A stretch of DNA of 64,000 nt from Asanoa siamensis. Lineage in GTDB: Bacteria; Actinomycetota; Actinomycetes; Mycobacteriales; Micromonosporaceae. Positions 35,737-61,456 of the stretch are shown piece after piece. The stretch spans positions 62,001 to 126,000 of the forward strand of contig NZ_BONE01000005.1 in assembly GCF_016862555.1 (NCBI RefSeq), written 5' to 3'. Within the stretch, counting starts at the first letter, position 1; each line of letters starts with the position of its first letter. The position numbers and the translations under genes are program-made. Under the pieces are notes generated by a model, which was given only the letters and a program-made list of their open reading frames with translations, was not told the DNA's origin and ran no database searches.

Positions 35737-36171
35737 CTAACGCGGTGCGTACTCGGCGATCCGGCCGATCAACCCGTTGAGGAAACGCGGGCTGTCGTCG
35801 GTCGACATCTGGCGGGCCAGTTCGACCGCCTCGGTGATCGCCACCGCGTCGTCGATCTCGTCGACGTAGAGCAACTCGTAGACCGCGATCCGGGCCAGGT
35901 TGCGGTCGACCACCGGCATGCGGTCGATCGTCCACCCCTCGGCGTAGCTCGCGATCAGCTCGTCGATCCGGTCGAGGTGCGTGGCGACACCCTTGACCAG
36001 GCCCTCCGCGTAGTCCAGATGGCCCGGCAGCGGGCGCTCCAGCCGCGCGACGTAGTCGATGAGGACATCCGTCGGCGGCCGGTCCCGCAGGTCGGCTTCG
36101 AACAGCACGTCGAGGGCCCTCTTACGCGCCTTGCGGCGCGCGGGCATCGAGGTCTTGGGGCCCTCCGCCAT
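35737..36171 (-). CDS. nusB: Transcription antitermination protein NusB
   Basis: 144 residues, all-helical NusB fold. Recognisable segments are ARRKARKRALDVLFEADLR at the N-terminus and VAITEAVELARQMSTDDSPRFLNGLIGRIA at the end (given in two parts: VAITEAVELARQMST, then RFLNGLIGRIA). With NusE it binds boxA RNA in rRNA operons. It shares one base with the efp stop region, so the two are co-translated. Confidence 0.95.
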   Translation of the reverse strand: MAEGPKTSMPARRKARKRALDVLFEADLRDRPPTDVLIDYVARLERPLPGHLDYAEGLVKGVATHLDRIDELIASYAEGWTIDRMPVVDRNLARIAVYELLYVDEIDDAVAITEAVELARQMSTDDSPRFLNGLIGRIAEYAPR

Positions 36172-36728
36172 CAGCCGCGGCCGAGGTAACGGCCGTCTCG
36201 GGTGTCGACCTTGATCTTCTCACCGGTGGTGATGAACAGCGGGACCTGGACGGTCGCGCCGGTCTCGACGGTGGCCGGCTTGTTGCCGCCCGTGGAACGG
36301 TCGCCCTGCAGGCCCGGCTCGGTGTAGGTGACCTCGAGCACGACGCTGGTCGGCAACTCGATGTAGAGCGGGACGCCCTCGTGGGTGGCGACGATCGCCT
36401 CGGCCTCGGGGAGGAGGTAGTTCGACGCCTCGCCGACCGTGCCACCACTGACGTGGATCTGGTCGTAGGTGTCGAGGTCCATGAAGACGAAGTCTTCGCC
36501 GTCGGCGTAGAGGTATTGCATCGTGCGCTTGTCGACGGTCGCGGTATCGACCTTGGTCCCCGCGTTGAAGGTCTTGTCGACGACCTTCCCGGACAGCACG
36601 TTCTTGAGCGTGGTGCGCACGAACGCACCACCCTTTCCGGGCTTGACGTGCTGGAACTCAACAACAGCCCATAGCTCGCCGTCGAGGTTGAGAACCAGGC
36701 CGTTCTTCAGGTCGTTGGTGGTGGCCAT
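36171..36728 (-). CDS. efp: Translation elongation factor P
   Basis: 185 residues with three beta-barrel domains. The tip loop reads VKPGKGGAF with Lys32, the residue that reaches the peptidyl-transferase centre. EF-P rescues ribosomes stalled at polyproline; this window itself encodes a protein with hundreds of Pro residues (54391-59697). No lysyl-modification gene is nearby. It is the first gene of efp-nusB on the minus strand. Confidence 0.96.
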
Positions 36729-53506: not shown

Positions 53507-53827
53507 TCAGTTGTGGCGCTGTCGTGGGTGCGTGCTGGTGCCCGGCTCGTCGAACTCGACCGGGAGGTCGTCGCCGCGCAGGTCTTCGAACTCGTCCTCG
53601 AACTGCACGCCGTTGGCGAACGCCTCGTGGATCTGCTGCTCGCGTTCGGCCATGTTGACGCGTACGTCGTCCATGAAGGCCCGGACGGACTCGACCAGGC
53701 CGCCGGCGGACTGGCTCACCGAGCCGGCGATGCCGGACGGGGTGAACTCGTTGGCCTTCTGGGTCAGCTTGCGGACGACCAGGGCGCCCACCGCGAGGCC
53801 GACACCCAGCCAGAGCAACCGCTTCAT
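53507..53827 (-). CDS. Conserved small membrane-anchored protein (DUF6167-like)
   Basis: 106 residues. One N-terminal helix (about 3-20: LLWLGVGLAVGALVV) is followed by a hydrophilic segment with predicted helix (FMDDVRVNMAEREQQIHEAF) and an acidic tail. Proteins of this type occur beside alaS in actinobacteria, and the DUF number is from memory. Function unknown. It lies 28 bp upstream of alaS. Confidence 0.8.
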   Translation of the reverse strand: MKRLLWLGVGLAVGALVVRKLTQKANEFTPSGIAGSVSQSAGGLVESVRAFMDDVRVNMAEREQQIHEAFANGVQFEDEFEDLRGDDLPVEFDEPGTSTHPRQRHN

Positions 53828-53856
53828 GGTCTCTATCCTTCCTCGCGGCCCTCGGG

Positions 53857-54321
53857 TCAGCGGGCGGTGGCCCGCTTCGCCGCGCGGCGCTGCTGCTTGA
53901 GGGTGGCGCGCACCTCACGCTCGTCCTCCGCGTTGCGGCGGGCGGCGGCGGCCTTGCGTACGCCGTACCCGAAGGCGGCGACCTTGACCAGCGGGTTGGC
54001 AGCGGCTGCCGAGACCACGGTGGTGAGGTTGGCGACGTTGGCGGTCACGTTCTGGGCGTGGCCGGTCATCGTGTCGATCTTGGCGAGCTGGATGTTGACG
54101 CCGTCGAGCGACGTGTGCACCTGGCTCAGCGCCACGTTGACGCCCTCGATCGTCGTGTTGGCGTTGGCCAGGATCGGCCCGGTGCGGTCGTTGAGATCGT
54201 TGATCGCGTTGGTGGCCGCGTCGATCGTCTTACGGAGCCGCAGGATCGGCACCGCGAGCACCAGCACCAGCATCAGGAACGCGCCGGCTACGACCAGCCA
54301 CGCGACTTCTCCACCGTCCAC
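53857..54321 (-). CDS. DUF948 domain protein, membrane-anchored coiled coil
   Basis: 154 residues from the GTG at 54321 (GAGGAGG 5 bp upstream). One helix (about 8-27) is followed by a long amphipathic helix with heptad-like Asn/Ile/Val spacing (about 30-105) and a basic Arg/Lys-rich end. This is the DUF948 pattern, found with alaS in actinobacteria. Function unknown; a scaffold role at the membrane is plausible. Confidence 0.85.
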   Translation of the reverse strand: MDGGEVAWLVVAGAFLMLVLVLAVPILRLRKTIDAATNAINDLNDRTGPILANANTTIEGVNVALSQVHTSLDGVNIQLAKIDTMTGHAQNVTANVANLTTVVSAAAANPLVKVAAFGYGVRKAAAARRNAEDEREVRATLKQQRRAAKRATAR

Positions 54322-54390
54322 CCGAACCTCCTCCACGACGTACCCCGTGCGCCAACGTGCAGACCCTACCGTCCGTAACGCCGCACGGCC

Positions 54391-57300
54391 TCACGACGGT
54401 GCGGCCACGGGGGCCAGCCCGTACGGCGTCTCGCCGACCTGCGACGGGTTGATGCCGGGCAGTGGCCCGGTGCGCTCGTCGGCGATCGCGTTGCGGACCT
54501 TGATGGACACGTCGGACCCCTTGCAGTCCTCGGGATCCAGCCCCGGCACCCCCGGCGCGGCGCTGACGCCCGGCTCCGGCTCGACGCCGATCGGAACGTT
54601 GCCGCAGGCCGGGGCGCGTACCCAGAGATCCATCGTCAGCTCGTCCCGGGTCCAGCAGGTGTAGCTGCCGTCCACCTTCGTCTCCGGGCACTTGGCCGGC
54701 TTCCAGCTCTGCCAACCGCTGGCGATCAAGGCATCGTGGTACGCCTTGGCGGTCTCCTCCGGAGGGTTGCTGGAGTGCGTCGTCCGCTCGCGGAACCGGC
54801 ATTCCTCCAGGCACCAGCGGTTGCCGTCGATCTGGTCCTGCGGCTCGTTGTTGGCCCAGTCGGGGACGGCGAGGCTGTCGAGGGAGACGAAGACCGGGTC
54901 GCGGGACTCGGTCTTCGACCAGGAGTAGATCGGCAGGGCGACCAGGACGAGCAGGATGCCGAGCACGAGTACGCCCAGGCGGACGTTGCGCGGCTCACGG
55001 ATCTGCTCGCGGAGTTGGGCCGGGGTGACGCGGCCGCGTTTGGCGGGGTGGTCGTCGTCGGTTTGTGGGGGTGGCGCTCCCATTCCCACTGATGCGGTCG
55101 CCGTCGCGGGTGCGGCCGGTGGGCGCGCGGTGCCGGCGGCTGGGGGTGTGGCGGCGGCACGGACCGGGGGTACGGCGGCGGCTGCTGCGGGCGGCGGACC
55201 GCTTTCCGCGGGTACGCCGGCGCGGGGCGCGCCGGCGCGGGCGGCTGGTTGGCCTGATTGTCCGCCGGGGCCGGGCGGGCCGGATGGTCCGCCTCGGGCT
55301 GTCGGTGGGCCCTGGCCTGGTCCGCCGGGGGCGGGCATGCCGTTGGGGGCGCCTGGGCCGTGGCCTGGGCCGGGGACGACCGTGCCGGTCGCACCTGGGC
55401 CTGGGCCTGGGCCTGGGCCTGGGCCGTTGGGGCCGGGCTGGTTGGGCGGCGTCGGGGGGCGGGCGGTGCCTGCGGCCGGTGCGCCGGGGCGGCTCGCGCC
55501 ACGCGCGGGTGGGCCCGCGGCTACGCCTGGGCCGGCTGGCATTCCGGACGGTGCGCCTGGCCCGCCGGCCGGTGGCCGAACGGTGCCGGTCGGTGGCCGA
55601 ACGGTGCCGGTCGCCTCGGGGCCGCCGCGGCTCCGGTCCTGGCCGGGGCGTCCGCCAGGGCCACCCGGTGCGCCGGGGCCTCGGTCCTGCCCGGGACCGG
55701 CGGGTGCGCCGGGGCTCCGGTCGGGGCCGGGACGTCCGGGGCCACCTGGTGCGCCGGGGCCTCGGTCCTGGCCGGGGCCGCCGGGTGCGCCGGGGTTCCG
55801 GTCCTGGCCGGGGCGTCCGCCACGGCCGGCCGGCCCGCCTGGCTGCTCCGGCGCACGTGGTGGCCGCACCGCGCCGTCGGCGTCGGCCGGGCGGTTCGGC
55901 CCGCCTCGGCTGACGGCCGCGTCCCGACCGGGTCCGCCGGGGCGGTCGAGCCCGCCGGGCACCCGGAGCCGAGACGGCGCATCGGGCGGCCCGGAGGCAG
56001 CGCCGTCCGCGTCATCGGGAGCGGCACGGCGCCCGCGCGTTCCGGAGCCGTCCACGTCGTCCGGGGCGGCACGGCGGCCGCGCGGCCCGTCGGGCGCCCG
56101 TCCGCCGCGCTCGCCATCGCTGAAGCGTCCACGCGCACCGGTCGGGTTGGCGCCGGTGCCCTCGTTGAACCTGCCACGCGCGCCCGGCGCCGCGGCATCG
56201 TCACCGGCACGATTGGCGGCCGCGCCGGCGCCCGTGTCGCCGCCCACGCGACCAGCGGCCGGACGTGCCGCCGCGGCGTCGCCGTCTGCTCGACCGGCAG
56301 CCGCACCGCCGCCACCGAACCGGCCACCCGGTCCGGGCACGGCGTCGTCGCGGACGCCACCGGTGTCGTTGAATCGCCCTCGCGCGCCACCCAGGGTGCC
56401 CGTGTCCGTGTCGGAAGCCCGGCGCCGGCGTCCGCCGGTCGGCGACATCACGTCGCCGGTACCGCCGGTCGCGTCGTCCGCTGCCGCACCGTGCCGGCTC
56501 GCACGCGTGGCAGCGTCCGCACCCGGTACGCCGCCGGCGGCAGCGCCGGTCAGTTCGTCGCCCGCGCCGTGCCGGCTACGGGGGATGTCGGGGCCGTCGT
56601 CGGCGGCACGCCGGCCGGCGACAGGCTGCCCGCCCGTGGCATCGCCACGGAAACGGCTGCGCGCGCCACCTCCACGCGGCGGCGCCACGCCACCGTCGGG
56701 GGCGTCCGGCGCCGCGGCACCGCGGCCGCCGAACGGCTGGCCCGGCGCTCCCGGCGGAACGTCCGGCCCGCCGGGTCGTCCACGCCCGCCGAAGCCAGGG
56801 CCCGCCTCACCGGCGGGCGGTTCCCCGCCCGGCGCACCGCGACGGGCGGCTCCACGACCGCCGAACTGGGGTGCCGGACCTTCGCCCGGCGGCTGATCCA
56901 TATCCGGGGCACCACGGCCGACCGGCCGTCCGCGGAACGCGGCGGGATCGTCCGGGTCCGCACCCGGGCGGCCGCCAGGGGCGCCGGAGCGACCTCGACC
57001 GTCGAAGCCGTCAGGCCGTCCGGGCATCGCCGCTCCGCCGGGCACGGCGCCCGCCGGCGGCGCACCGACCTGCCCGCCGAACCCGTCGGCGCGACCCGGC
57101 CCGGCGCTGCCGGGCGCGTCCGGGCCGCCGCGGCCCGGGCGGCCGCGACCGCCGATGTTCTCGGGCCGCCCCACCGCTGCGTCACCCGGCTGCTCAGGAC
57201 CAGGCACGCCGCGCCGGCCACGACCGCCCGTGGTCTCTGGCCGCCCTGCCACGCCGTCACCCGGCACCTCGGCGCCGGGCGCACCCCGCCGCCCACGACC

Positions 57301-59697
57301 GCCGAAGGTGTCGGGGCCGTCAGCCGGCGGCTCGCCGGCCGCGCGACGACCAGACCGGGTGGGGCCGGCATCACGCCCGGGTACCACCGGCGGCGCGATC
57401 ACCGGCGGCATCCCGCCGGTCGCCGCGGGCGGCACAGCGCCCCGCGTAGCCCAGCCCCCGGTGTTCTCACGGTCCACGGGCGGTTGCCCGGGGGGCGTCG
57501 CGCCGCGCGTGGCCCAGCTCCCCGTGTTCTCACGGTCCACGGGCGGTTGCGCGGGCGGCGTCGCGCCGCGCGTAGCCCAGCCACCCGTGTTCTCACGGTC
57601 CACAGGCGGTTGCGCGGGCGACGCGCCCCGCGTAGCCCAGCCACCGGTGTCCTCACGGTCCACGGGCGGTTGCCCGGGCCGCGCCGCGCCGCGCGTAGCC
57701 CAGCCACCGGTGTTCTCACGGTCCACCGGCGGTTGCGCGGCCGGGCCGGGCGGCCCGCCGGCCGCGAAGCGGTTGCGGGTCGGCTCTCCGCCGGAGGCCG
57801 GCGCACCGGGCGCCGACGGGCGGCCCGGTTGGTCGCGCCGGGTCCAGTCCGATGGCTGGCCCGGGACTGCCCCGCTGCTCTGGGGATCATCAGGCTCGGC
57901 CGCGCGCCGCCGGCCGCCGCCGGCCGGTGACCGGAGCGCGCCGGTGCCCGGGTCGCCGTCGCGCCGGTCGGACGGGCCGCCCGCCGCCGGGCCACCCCGC
58001 CAGCCGGGCTCCCCGGATGCCGGAGGAACGGGCGGTGCGTTGCCCGACATCGGTACGCTGGCCGCGCCCTGGTCCGGCGGCGCCGAGAACCGGCTACGCG
58101 CCGACCCGCCACGGCCCCGCGGCCCGGAAACCGGCGCGGCGGGCAACCCACCGGTCGCCTCCGGGCGCGCGCCCCACTGCCCGGTGTCCGGCCCCGGCGG
58201 CGTGCCGGGGCGGCCCGCCGGGCCGAACTGCCCTGAAGTCTCCTCGGGCCGGCCCCGCCGCGCCCGTCCGCCGGCCGCGTCGCCGGGTGGCACAGCACCA
58301 GCGCCACGAGGTCCGACGGGCGGCGCACCCGGTGCGCCGCCGTGCGGCCCCGCCGGGGGCACGGGACCGGCGCCACCACGCGGGCCGGAGGGCGGCACCT
58401 CGCCAGCACCGCCATACGGCCCCGCCGGTGGCCCGCCCGGACCACCACGGCCGCCAGCCGGCGGCACTCCAGCACCTGGATGCGGCGCGCCAGCACCACC
58501 GCCGCTGTGCGGTCCCGCCGGAGGCATCCCTGCGGGGCCGCCACGCGTCCCCGCCGGCGGAACGCCACCGTGCGGCCCTGCCTGAGGCGCACCTCCCTGC
58601 CCGCCATGTGGGCCGGCAGGAGGCACACCCGGAGGCATTCCAGCACCACGGGCCCCCGCCGGCGGCACGCCGGCACCACCGCGCGGGCCTGCCGGCGGCA
58701 CCCCGCCAGCACCGTGGGCACCCGCCGGGGGCGCACCAGCACCACGCGGACCGGCCGGCGGCACGCCGCCAGGACCACCGTGCACACCCGCCGGGGGCAC
58801 ACCAGCGCCACCACGCGGGCCAGCCGGCGGCACGCCGCCAGCACCGTGCGCACCCGCCGGAGGCACACCAGCACCACCACGCGGACCCGCCGGCGACACC
58901 CCGCCAGCACCATGCGCACCCGCCGGAGGCACGCCGGCACCACCACGCGGGCCTGCCGGCGGCACGCCCCCAGCACCGTGCGCACCCGCCGGAGGCGCAC
59001 CAGCACCACGCGGACCCGCCGGCGGCACGCCGCCAGGACCACCGTGCGCGCCCGCCGGAGGCGCACCAGCACCACCACGCGGACCCGCCGGCGGCACCCC
59101 GCCAGCACCATGCGCACCCGCCGGGGGAACACCAGCACCACCACGCGGACCCGCCGGTGGCACGCCGCCGGCACCACCGTGCGGCCCCGCCGGGGCCATG
59201 CCCGGCCCGCCGCGCGGTGCCGCGGGAGGAGCGCCGCGCGTCCCGCCCGTACCCCGTGGTCCGTTCGCCGGCATCCCGCCGGCACCGGGCGTGACAGGCG
59301 GTCCACCCGCCGGTCCGCCGAAGCCGCCGGGCGGCTCGGCCTGCGCCGGGCCGCCGGCCGCTCCCCGGCCGTCATCGCCGCGCCGACCGCGACCGAACCC
59401 GCGCGGCCCACCCTCCGCGGGCGGCCCGCCCGGACCGCCGCGCCCGGACCCGTCGGCGCCGAAGGGTTCCGGCACGTCGTCGTCATCGGGACCGGGAGCG
59501 CCGAGTCCGCGCTTCGACGGCGGCGCCGGTGGCACGTCGCCGCCGGGGCCGATGTCGGTGCGTTCTTCCTTGGCCGTGCGCAGGTCGTCGAGCCAGCCGG
59601 TCTCCTCGCCGGAGACCGCCTCGGCGTCGGCGCCGTCGTTGCGACCCCGGCCCCATCGCCGGCCCCGCGCCGGCGGATCGCGCCGATCGTCGCTCAC
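54391..59697 (-). CDS. Giant Pro/Gly-rich repetitive single-pass membrane protein
   Basis: 1768 residues from the GTG at 59697 (GAGGTGAG upstream). The N-terminus (1-65) is charged with a [12 protein letters not shown] segment. Residues about 65-1545 are almost wholly low-complexity Gly, Pro, Ala and Arg. They comprise about 20 copies of a decapeptide such as [10 protein letters not shown] (about 165-400), five copies of [16 protein letters not shown], then [15 protein letters not shown] and [12 protein letters not shown] blocks. A basic patch ([21 protein letters not shown]) leads into one helix (about 1569-1592). The external C-terminal domain (about 176 residues) has six Cys (WCLEEC, KC, TC, AC, DC). 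Positive-inside rule puts the repeats in the cytoplasm. No known family was recognised for the whole. Confidence 0.85.
57441..57738 (-). repeat. 60/63-bp coding repeat ([15 protein letters not shown], five copies)
   Basis: The core TTCTCAC recurs at 57464, 57527, 57590, 57650 (as TCCTCAC) and 57713, so unit lengths are 63, 63, 60 and 63 bp. All are multiples of 3 and keep the frame of the giant protein. One unit has Asp for Asn and one has Ser for Gly, so the repeat is under weak protein-level constraint. Confidence 0.9.
58590..59200 (-). repeat. Coding decapeptide repeat ([12 protein letters not shown] type)
   Basis: About 20 imperfect units of 30-33 bp encoding G(G)AG(G/V)PPAG(P/A)(R/H). 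Larger super-units of four decapeptides recur, so the array probably grew by unequal crossing-over. All indels keep the reading frame. Confidence 0.85.
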
Positions 59698-59800: not shown

Positions 59801-61456
59801 TCACCCGACCTCGCCTTCGCCGTCGGCCGATCGCCGGCCACCGCGCCCTGCCGGGACAGCGTCACCCACCGGGCGCTCCTCCACGACCCCGGTCCCACCG
59901 GAACGCGGCTCCGCGACGGCTTCCGCATCATGCGCGCCGTCAGCGGGGCCACCCGCGGACCCGCTGTCCGGCTCCGCCGCCGGTCCGCCGCCTCCGCGCG
60001 CCGCGCCCTCGCGGGCAGGCCCACCGTCCGCCGAATCGCCAGGACGCGCCGGCCCGCCGTTCTCGCCGCCCCTGCGCCCGCGCTCGCCGCGGACGATCCG
60101 CCGGATGGTCGGCAGCCGCATGCCCACCGCGCGCTCGTCGCCGTGGTCGCCGGGCTGGTAGTAGTCGACGCCGACGAGCCCGTCCGGCGGGTACTGCTGG
60201 GTGAGCACACCGCGCGGGTCGTCGTGCGGATAGCGGTAGCCCTTGCCGTGGCCGAGCCCCTTGGCGCCCTGGTAGTGCGCGTCCCGCAGGTGCTGGGGCA
60301 CGCGACCGCCCTTGCCGGCGCGTACATCCGCGAGTGCCTGACCGATCGCGGTCGTCGCGCTGTTGGACTTGGGCGCCGTGGCCATGTGGATCACGGCCTG
60401 GGCGAGGTTGAGCTGCACCTCGGGCAGGCCGACGTATTCCACGGCGTGCGCGGTCGCGGTCGCCACCGACAGCGCGGTCGGGTCGGCCATGCCGATGTCC
60501 TCGCTGGCGAAGATGACGATGCGCCGGGCGATGAACCGGGCGTCCTCGCCGGCCACCAGCATCCGCGCCAGGTAGTGCAGCGAGGCGTCCACATCGGAGC
60601 CCCGCATGCTCTTGATGAACGCGCTGATCACGTCGTAGTGCTCGTCGCCGTCCCGGTCGTACCGCACCGCCGCGACGTCCACGGCCTGCTCGGCGGTCTC
60701 CAGGTCGATCTCGGTGGCGCCGCGGGCCAGCGCCGACCCGGCCGCCGCCTCGAGGGCGGTCAGCGCCTTGCGGACGTCGCCTGACGCGAGGCGTACCAGA
60801 TGATCTTCTGCTTCCGTACTGAGCGTGACCTGCCCGTCGAGCCCGCGCTCGTCGGCGACCGCCCGGCGCACGAGCCCCCGCACCGCCGCCTCGTCGAGCG
60901 GCTGCAAGGTCAACAGCACACAACGGGACAGAAGCGGGGAAATCACCGAGAAGTACGGGTTTTCGGTCGTCGCCGCCAGCAGCGTCACCGTGCGGTCCTC
61001 GACGGCCGCGAGCAGCGAGTCCTGCTGTGTCTTGGAGAACCGGTGCACCTCGTCGATGAACAGGACGGTCGGCGGCCCACCGGCCCGACGCTGCCGGCGC
61101 GCGGTGTCGATCACGGCGCGCACGTCCTTGACGCCCGCGTTGAGCGCCGACATCGCCACGAACCGGCGGTCACTCGCCTGGGCGACGAGGTGCGCGATCG
61201 TGGTCTTCCCGCTGCCCGGCGGCCCCCACAGGATCACCGAGAGTGGCGTCGCTCCCGTCACCAGTTGACGCAGCGGCGCACCCGGCGCGAGCAGGTGGCC
61301 CTGGCCGACCAGCTCGTCGATCGTCCGGGGCCGCATGCGCACCGGCAGCGGCGCGTCGGCACCCGGCGCCGCGAAGCCGTCACCGCCGGCGGTGTGCGCG
61401 GGCGCGGTGCGCGCTCCGCCACCGTCGGTGAACGAGAAAAGAGCGTCGGGCTCCAT
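59801..61456 (-). CDS. rarA: Replication-associated recombination protein A (RarA/MgsA)
   Basis: 551 residues from the ATG at 61456. The AAA+ core has Walker [10 protein letters not shown], Walker [11 protein letters not shown], sensor residues TTENPYF and the arginine-finger region LLSRCVLL. The MgsA C-terminal tetramer domain (about 280-450) is complete ([15 protein letters not shown]...[18 protein letters not shown]). The last 95 residues are a Gly/Glu/Ala-rich disordered tail not typical of RarA. It acts at stalled forks. It is the usual neighbour of alaS and aspS in actinobacteria. Confidence 0.95.

Follow-up and report, generated by a model that had tools for sequence, protein, structure and literature searches.

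What does the minus strand of Asanoa siamensis encode between positions 54391 and 59697 of the window analysed here (the whole 64,000-nucleotide stretch of contig NZ_BONE01000005.1), where an open reading frame (ORF) of 1768 codons opens with GTG shortly past aggtgag, a plausible ribosome site? An earlier note, made from the letters alone, had read it as a Pro/Gly-rich membrane protein of 1768 residues, and both the frame and the bias are there: the product counts G 434, P 326, A 278, R 171 and Cys 6 (Gly 25%, Pro 18%, Ala 16%, Arg 10%), with a Gly/Pro/Ala/Arg-rich part of ~1550 residues. Judging by its orthologs, we conclude that the ORF is a real protein-coding frame and that its product belongs to a real, taxon-restricted protein family of unusual architecture, with a membrane helix and an ectodomain at the C-terminus, a long and fast-changing cytoplasmic part (the leash) and a short head at the N-terminal end. 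To the idea that such a protein is a single-pass membrane tether we would give an even chance.

Length does not carry the first of these conclusions. An open frame by itself is weak evidence because antisense frames, too, are very long in GC-rich DNA, and over orthologous genes of the genus they stay open for up to 1508 codons. What makes the frame real is the combination of orthologs, conserved ends and the ratio of nonsynonymous to synonymous differences (pN/pS): all 6 genomes of the genus and dozens of other genera have homologous ends, a single open frame runs from head to C-terminal domain in 38 of the 42 loci that carry a head, and pN/pS (here and below taken within the genus, 6 genomes) stays under 1 in all ten regions measured. 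Against these findings, the view that the ORF is open by chance in GC-rich DNA and yields no protein strikes us as highly improbable, even if it can point to the likewise long other frames over the same genes and to the four of 42 head-bearing loci whose frame is broken. There, head and tail lie in different frames (L053, L061, L062) or have a stop between them (L081); the genomes concerned are 96% and 93% complete in few contigs (G035, G060) or 100% and 99% complete in many (G011, G047), and sequencing or assembly error is a possible source of the breaks. The earlier note's statement that all repeat indels keep frame, together with the frameshift check in relatives that it proposed, holds within the genus (no frameshift in 6/6 genomes) but not for these four cases from other genera; its step from a kept to a selected frame, weak as long as it leans on openness, is carried instead by the orthologs, the conserved ends and pN/pS.

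The constant core of the family, as the alignment presents it, is the helix plus the ectodomain. Across 57 aligned C-terminal regions, 12 columns are invariant, five Cys among them, and the sixth Cys is kept in at least 90% (the alignment omits L066, L071 and L093, which its anchor pattern missed and whose frames still match the query). In the window protein the single helix (54916..54978, on the minus strand like all other features of the protein; residues about 1574-1594) has a grand average of hydropathy of 2.71, and the ectodomain (54394..54909, residues 1597-1768) holds all six Cys, much as the earlier note had it with one membrane helix and a six-Cys domain. The ectodomain has a pN/pS of 0.27, juxtamembrane region plus helix 0.26 and the whole disordered region 0.49, leash figures being rough throughout owing to uncertain alignment in the repeats. 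Directly before the helix lies a basic juxtamembrane segment (54979..55032, residues 1556-1573), whose E.R.Q.RE pattern recurs in 14 of 24 representatives versus 1 in shuffles; these representatives, used for all leash statistics, come from 23 genera (g39 counted twice) and comprise 19,681 residues after removal of any head that was found. An N-in/C-out topology is supported because in 56 of the 57 aligned members the helix carries more positive charge on its N-side flank than on its C-side, and as much in the remaining one, the window protein itself having +1 versus 0. Taken from charge, hydropathy and composition only, this is a single-pass layout with a low-complexity N-terminal part, and it fits the previous claim that the long disordered region should sit in the cytoplasm.

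How far does the family reach? The last 209 residues match 66 of the 121 genomes of our relatives set (E up to 0.001), among them 65 of the 73 Micromonosporaceae genomes searched; the named relatives with an ortholog, three Asanoa species and Pilimelia terevasa, are all Micromonosporaceae. The lone out-of-family match (G106, E 8.9e-4) was rejected since the profile did not uphold it. Extended to 394 genomes of the class, with 7 candidates per genome scored for the genomes shown, the profile gave three strong matches, all family members, and partial ones in 10 other genomes (E 8.8e-5 to 0.0085, six of them across the helix region). Neither Pfam at E up to 1 (whole 1768-residue protein) nor NCBIfam above its curated cut-offs (C-terminal 209 residues) returned a family, and the 57 aligned members together picked up 10 scattered weak Pfam families (best E 0.021), none named MapZ. 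The best hit of a sequence-profile search against the PDB had an E of 2.3, and modelling just the ectodomain from a single sequence gave an unusable result (34.5). Among the papers listed by literature searches we recognised none on this protein by title or opening of the abstract; a proline/glycine-rich membrane protein near rarA, Rv2560, is known from M. tuberculosis.

Where the gene occurs, it usually sits between rarA and DUF948-DUF6167-alaS. We examined 60 family loci, the window included, with wider flanks (five family places near contig ends were left out) and found rarA upstream and DUF948 downstream in 58 each, and DUF6167 and alaS in 57 each, counts in which L057, L078 and L094 are truncated by contig ends; at L085 rarA is present, and DUF948, DUF6167 and alaS were unmatched within 3.4 kb downstream. 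Helix and six-Cys ectodomain between rarA and DUF948 hence recur as a rarA-alaS-linked orthologous group. In the window, a DUF948 gene and a small DUF6167-like gene (below the Pfam cut-off) occupy 53507-54336, between the ORF and alaS, and on the other side rarA extends ~100 residues past its MgsA_C domain (59801-60103), a tail that by eye is rich in Gly, Ala and Arg.

What varies from locus to locus is the cytoplasmic part. Measured in 58 of the 60 family loci, the distance that separates the helix from where the rarA match ends comes to at most 54 residues in 10 loci, where a cytoplasmic part is nearly absent, to 80-247 residues in 3 and to at least 362 in 45; counted from the rarA stop, the window's own, with 1616 residues, is the longest. 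At the distal end of the long forms stands the head (59551..59667, residues 11-49), made up of a basic RGRRWGRGR cluster, a linker and a tip motif with the consensus E-[ED]-x-G-W-[LI]-x-[DE]-L-R-x-A-[KR]. The pattern GW[LI]x[DE]LR was found in 42/45 long loci versus 0/13 short or mid loci, the short forms offering scarcely any space for it. While the G, W, [LI], [DE], L and R of the head are set by the search pattern itself, positions outside it are kept as well: among the 42 heads, E occurs at -3 in 41, A at +8 in 41 and K or R at +9 in 42. By pN/pS (0.48) the head is, within the genus, no more constrained than the leash, and its conservation is visible across genera. Synonymous differences are few in the head region (59533-59697; pS 0.27 versus 0.36-0.64 elsewhere within the genus), perhaps because the mRNA is constrained at its start. 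Run against 296 genomes of the class, with no more than 24 candidates scored per genome in the rows shown, the head profile strongly matched three family members and reached E 2.8e-4 or weaker in 22 other genomes; the best of these out-of-family matches, in a 123-residue ORF antisense to a gene judged RadA-like by eye, is probably due to chance. Asking whether the head co-occurs with MreB_Mbl or SsgA proved uninformative, since both match in 38/38 genomes; many MreB_Mbl places sit in open frames of about 620-660 residues, a length expected of DnaK.

Between head and helix, repeats dominate, and the earlier note was right to see several families of them: separate tandem arrays of 66 nt (8.1 copies), 63 nt (5.2), 75 nt (2.3), 81/36 nt and 6 nt (5.3) are listed, whose chief periods are multiples of 3, while four short rows of 16 have periods of 11, 11, 16 and 25. 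The largest, a 22-residue Gly-Pro-Ala-rich array (58640..59177, bounds as given by Tandem Repeats Finder and untrimmed to codons), is replaced by different repeat units in the other Asanoa shown, and the 21-residue repeats (57417..57744) have an occupancy of just 0.18-0.45 in the five further genomes of the genus. G+C at third codon positions (GC3) drops to 0.60-0.64 in the Gly/Pro/Ala repeats (58350-59250), with GGT as the most frequent Gly codon, versus 0.98 in alaS and 0.95 in the protein's tail; within the repeats position 3 is not the GC-richest one, and in 24/24 representatives GC3 of the disordered part lies below that of the tail. Lowered GC3 may serve to limit GC-rich structure.

Such turnover suggests a sober alternative, namely that the ectodomain alone does the work and the disordered region is near-neutral ballast thrown up by repeat slippage in GC-rich DNA. 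It would account for repeats that vary among species of one genus, for the 10 of 58 loci with next to no cytoplasmic part, for a genus with a lipoprotein version only (see below) and for a pN/pS of about 0.5-0.6, rough as it is, in the disordered region outside two islands. These islands, together with a tip motif retained in nearly all long loci and leash motifs that recur in different genera, are what ballast explains poorly, and we regard it as rather unlikely. Island 1 (57898..58164, residues 512-600) has a pN/pS of 0.30 and an identity of 0.86 over residues 518-557 in the genus, island 2 (57328..57426, residues 758-790) a pN/pS of 0.21 and an identity of 0.72; by these values, both match the folded part in constraint within the genus.

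Two short motifs recur along the leash. VP..GNA occurs in 15/24 representatives, where six shuffles gave at most 2, and GRRR..E in 14/24, where they gave at most 3; in the window protein they appear as VPMSGNA (58036..58056, residues 548-554; VPx[ST]GNA, one DNA-pattern match in the genome) and GRRRAAE (57895..57915, residues 595-601). In the 15 representatives with the former, its spacing ranges from 82 to 572 residues to the head and from 193 to 1211 residues to the end of the disordered region. VPx[ST]GNA is free in position yet kept, because its distance to head and helix varies several-fold. Could it be an output element, so that the protein is a one-pass receptor whose ectodomain senses the state of the envelope and whose VPx[ST]GNA signals, for instance by phosphorylation? 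A Ser or Thr is present in all 15 cases, though the pattern did not demand it, and the ectodomain is Cys-rich; but no output domain was recognised, 9/24 representatives are without the motif and recognition by a kinase is speculation, so we consider a receptor quite unlikely.

The earlier note had also seen a candidate for condensate formation, and the net charge of the disordered region is indeed positive in 24/24 representatives. Read as a membrane-bound condensate scaffold, the Arg/Gly-rich region would phase-separate or bind RNA at the membrane, in line with the enrichment of RG (62 versus 43 expected, z 3.4), RGG (z 2.7) and FGG (z 5.0) over shuffles in the window protein. That enrichment is not shared: RG falls below its own shuffles in 20/24 representatives and RGG reaches z 2.0 in just one other (L070). 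RGG as a conserved RNA-binding signal was rejected on this ground, the family as a whole lends condensate formation no support and a scaffold, which leaves the tip motif unexplained as well, seems to us clearly unlikely.

Another earlier claim was that translation should depend on EF-P, encoded in the same window, and the EF-P gene is there (36171-36728). Dependence itself is weakly supported and not distinctive. The disordered regions of the 24 representatives are 15-26% proline, and Pro-Pro pairs number 70 in the window protein, with VPPA accounting for 19; PPP, which stalls ribosomes most strongly, is depleted, with 2 observed versus about 11 expected in the window protein and 122 versus 180 over the representatives (0/500 shuffles as low). 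The gene therefore seems moulded to escape some of the severest stalls that call for EF-P, and dependence through other XPPX sites is possible.

How did the family come by so uneven a protein? Four of the eight unmatched family genomes (genera g13 and g22) have rarA followed by DUF948, with 79-154 nt between the BLAST matches; G007 and G042, in many contigs, were left unassigned. In genus g40 (L120, L121) the place between rarA and DUF948 is taken by a lipoprotein-like ORF of ~130 residues with a lipobox by eye. Its profile aligns with the ectodomain at an hhalign probability of 86 (E 4.7e-6, single comparison), and by eye the W and A-G-W signatures are retained in it along with two of the six Cys, but not the WCxxxCR pair; it has no Pfam family and, against 61 relatives (the two g40 genomes excluded), two weak partial matches (E 7.6e-4 and 0.008). 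Of 24 genomes from other families of the order, 20 yielded a DUF948 locus; 12 of these are flanked by rarA 69-164 nt before DUF948, and 0/20 have an ectodomain match, the other 8 allowing no judgement. In G106 the corresponding gap is 242 nt. A tree of rarA, alaS and DUF948 (75 loci) splits off g13 as sister to all other family members, which group together with support 1.0, and has one clade, also at 1.0, that mixes short, lipoprotein and long-with-head forms, deeper nodes being poorly supported (0.32-0.54). The simplest reading of these comparisons is that the gene was gained after the g13 split, that the long headed form arose early and that the leash was lost repeatedly with the ectodomain kept. 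Evidently the ectodomain can be retained without a leash, since some genera have helix and ectodomain alone or a lipid-anchored relative. Absent, lipoprotein, short, mid and long-with-tip forms at one syntenic place in one family make up a natural series in which the roles of ectodomain, leash length and putative docking peptide could be taken apart.

This brings us back to the tether. Its ends are conserved and its middle changes fast, as a leash predicts. The ectodomain would lie outside the cell and hold a site in the envelope, while the tip peptide, perhaps a short amphipathic helix, would dock on a cytoplasmic partner. The long disordered part would act as a flexible spacer through which the tip could explore the space at some distance from the membrane, and gain and loss of repeats would alter its length with the docking motifs untouched. 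Membrane tethering, already considered in the earlier note, fits the data, and the presence of a conserved tip where the leash is farthest from the helix strengthens it. Several points weigh on the other side. Disorder of the Gly/Pro/Ala/Arg-rich region is deduced from composition, the six motif shuffles ignore kinship between genera, and the head is missing from three long loci (L044, L076, L077). Judged by the two genera that lack it, the whole gene is not essential to the family, and the neighbours (rarA, alaS, ruvX, mltG) indicate no single function. Finally, an AlphaFold2 model of the ectodomain from 5 sequences had a mean predicted local distance difference test score of 55.7, and with this low-confidence model Foldseek found nothing below E 0.9 in the PDB.

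Which known systems does such a tether resemble? ZipA-type membrane anchors, too, combine a membrane helix with a Pro-rich flexible linker, though ZipA ends in a folded FtsZ-binding domain, whereas the far end of the Asanoa protein is a short peptide. Closer in layout is MapZ (LocZ) of Streptococcus pneumoniae, which is described as having one membrane helix, a cytoplasmic disordered N-terminal part with a highly conserved N-terminal region that binds FtsZ, and an extracellular C-terminal domain that binds peptidoglycan (PMC7055233). The Asanoa protein comes from another phylum, has no Pfam family, a far longer leash and a six-Cys ectodomain; the likeness would be one of layout. A MapZ ectodomain should be recognisable by a Pfam profile, and by family names no Pfam profile makes the Asanoa protein a MapZ. 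Because the layout matches, our guess by analogy is that the partner of the tip belongs to the division or growth-site machinery. If true, the family would reveal by what means envelope and cytoplasm are linked in these actinobacteria. We would tentatively go one step further, doubtful as it is, and propose a family-specific position marker, in which an envelope-reading ectodomain, an evolvable leash and a docking peptide recruit the division or tip-growth apparatus and which arose separately from MapZ and all described actinobacterial polarity and divisome proteins. For the tempo of change, the nearest bacterial parallel we found is the non-catalytic region of RNase E in gamma-proteobacteria, for which disorder, composition bias and tandem repeats are described as kept and short microdomains as conserved (PMC4435900). 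Unlike RNase E, the Asanoa protein has no recognised catalytic domain and its disordered part is closed by a helix and an ectodomain. In this bacterial membrane protein, conservation of motifs and turnover of the leash stand sharply apart.

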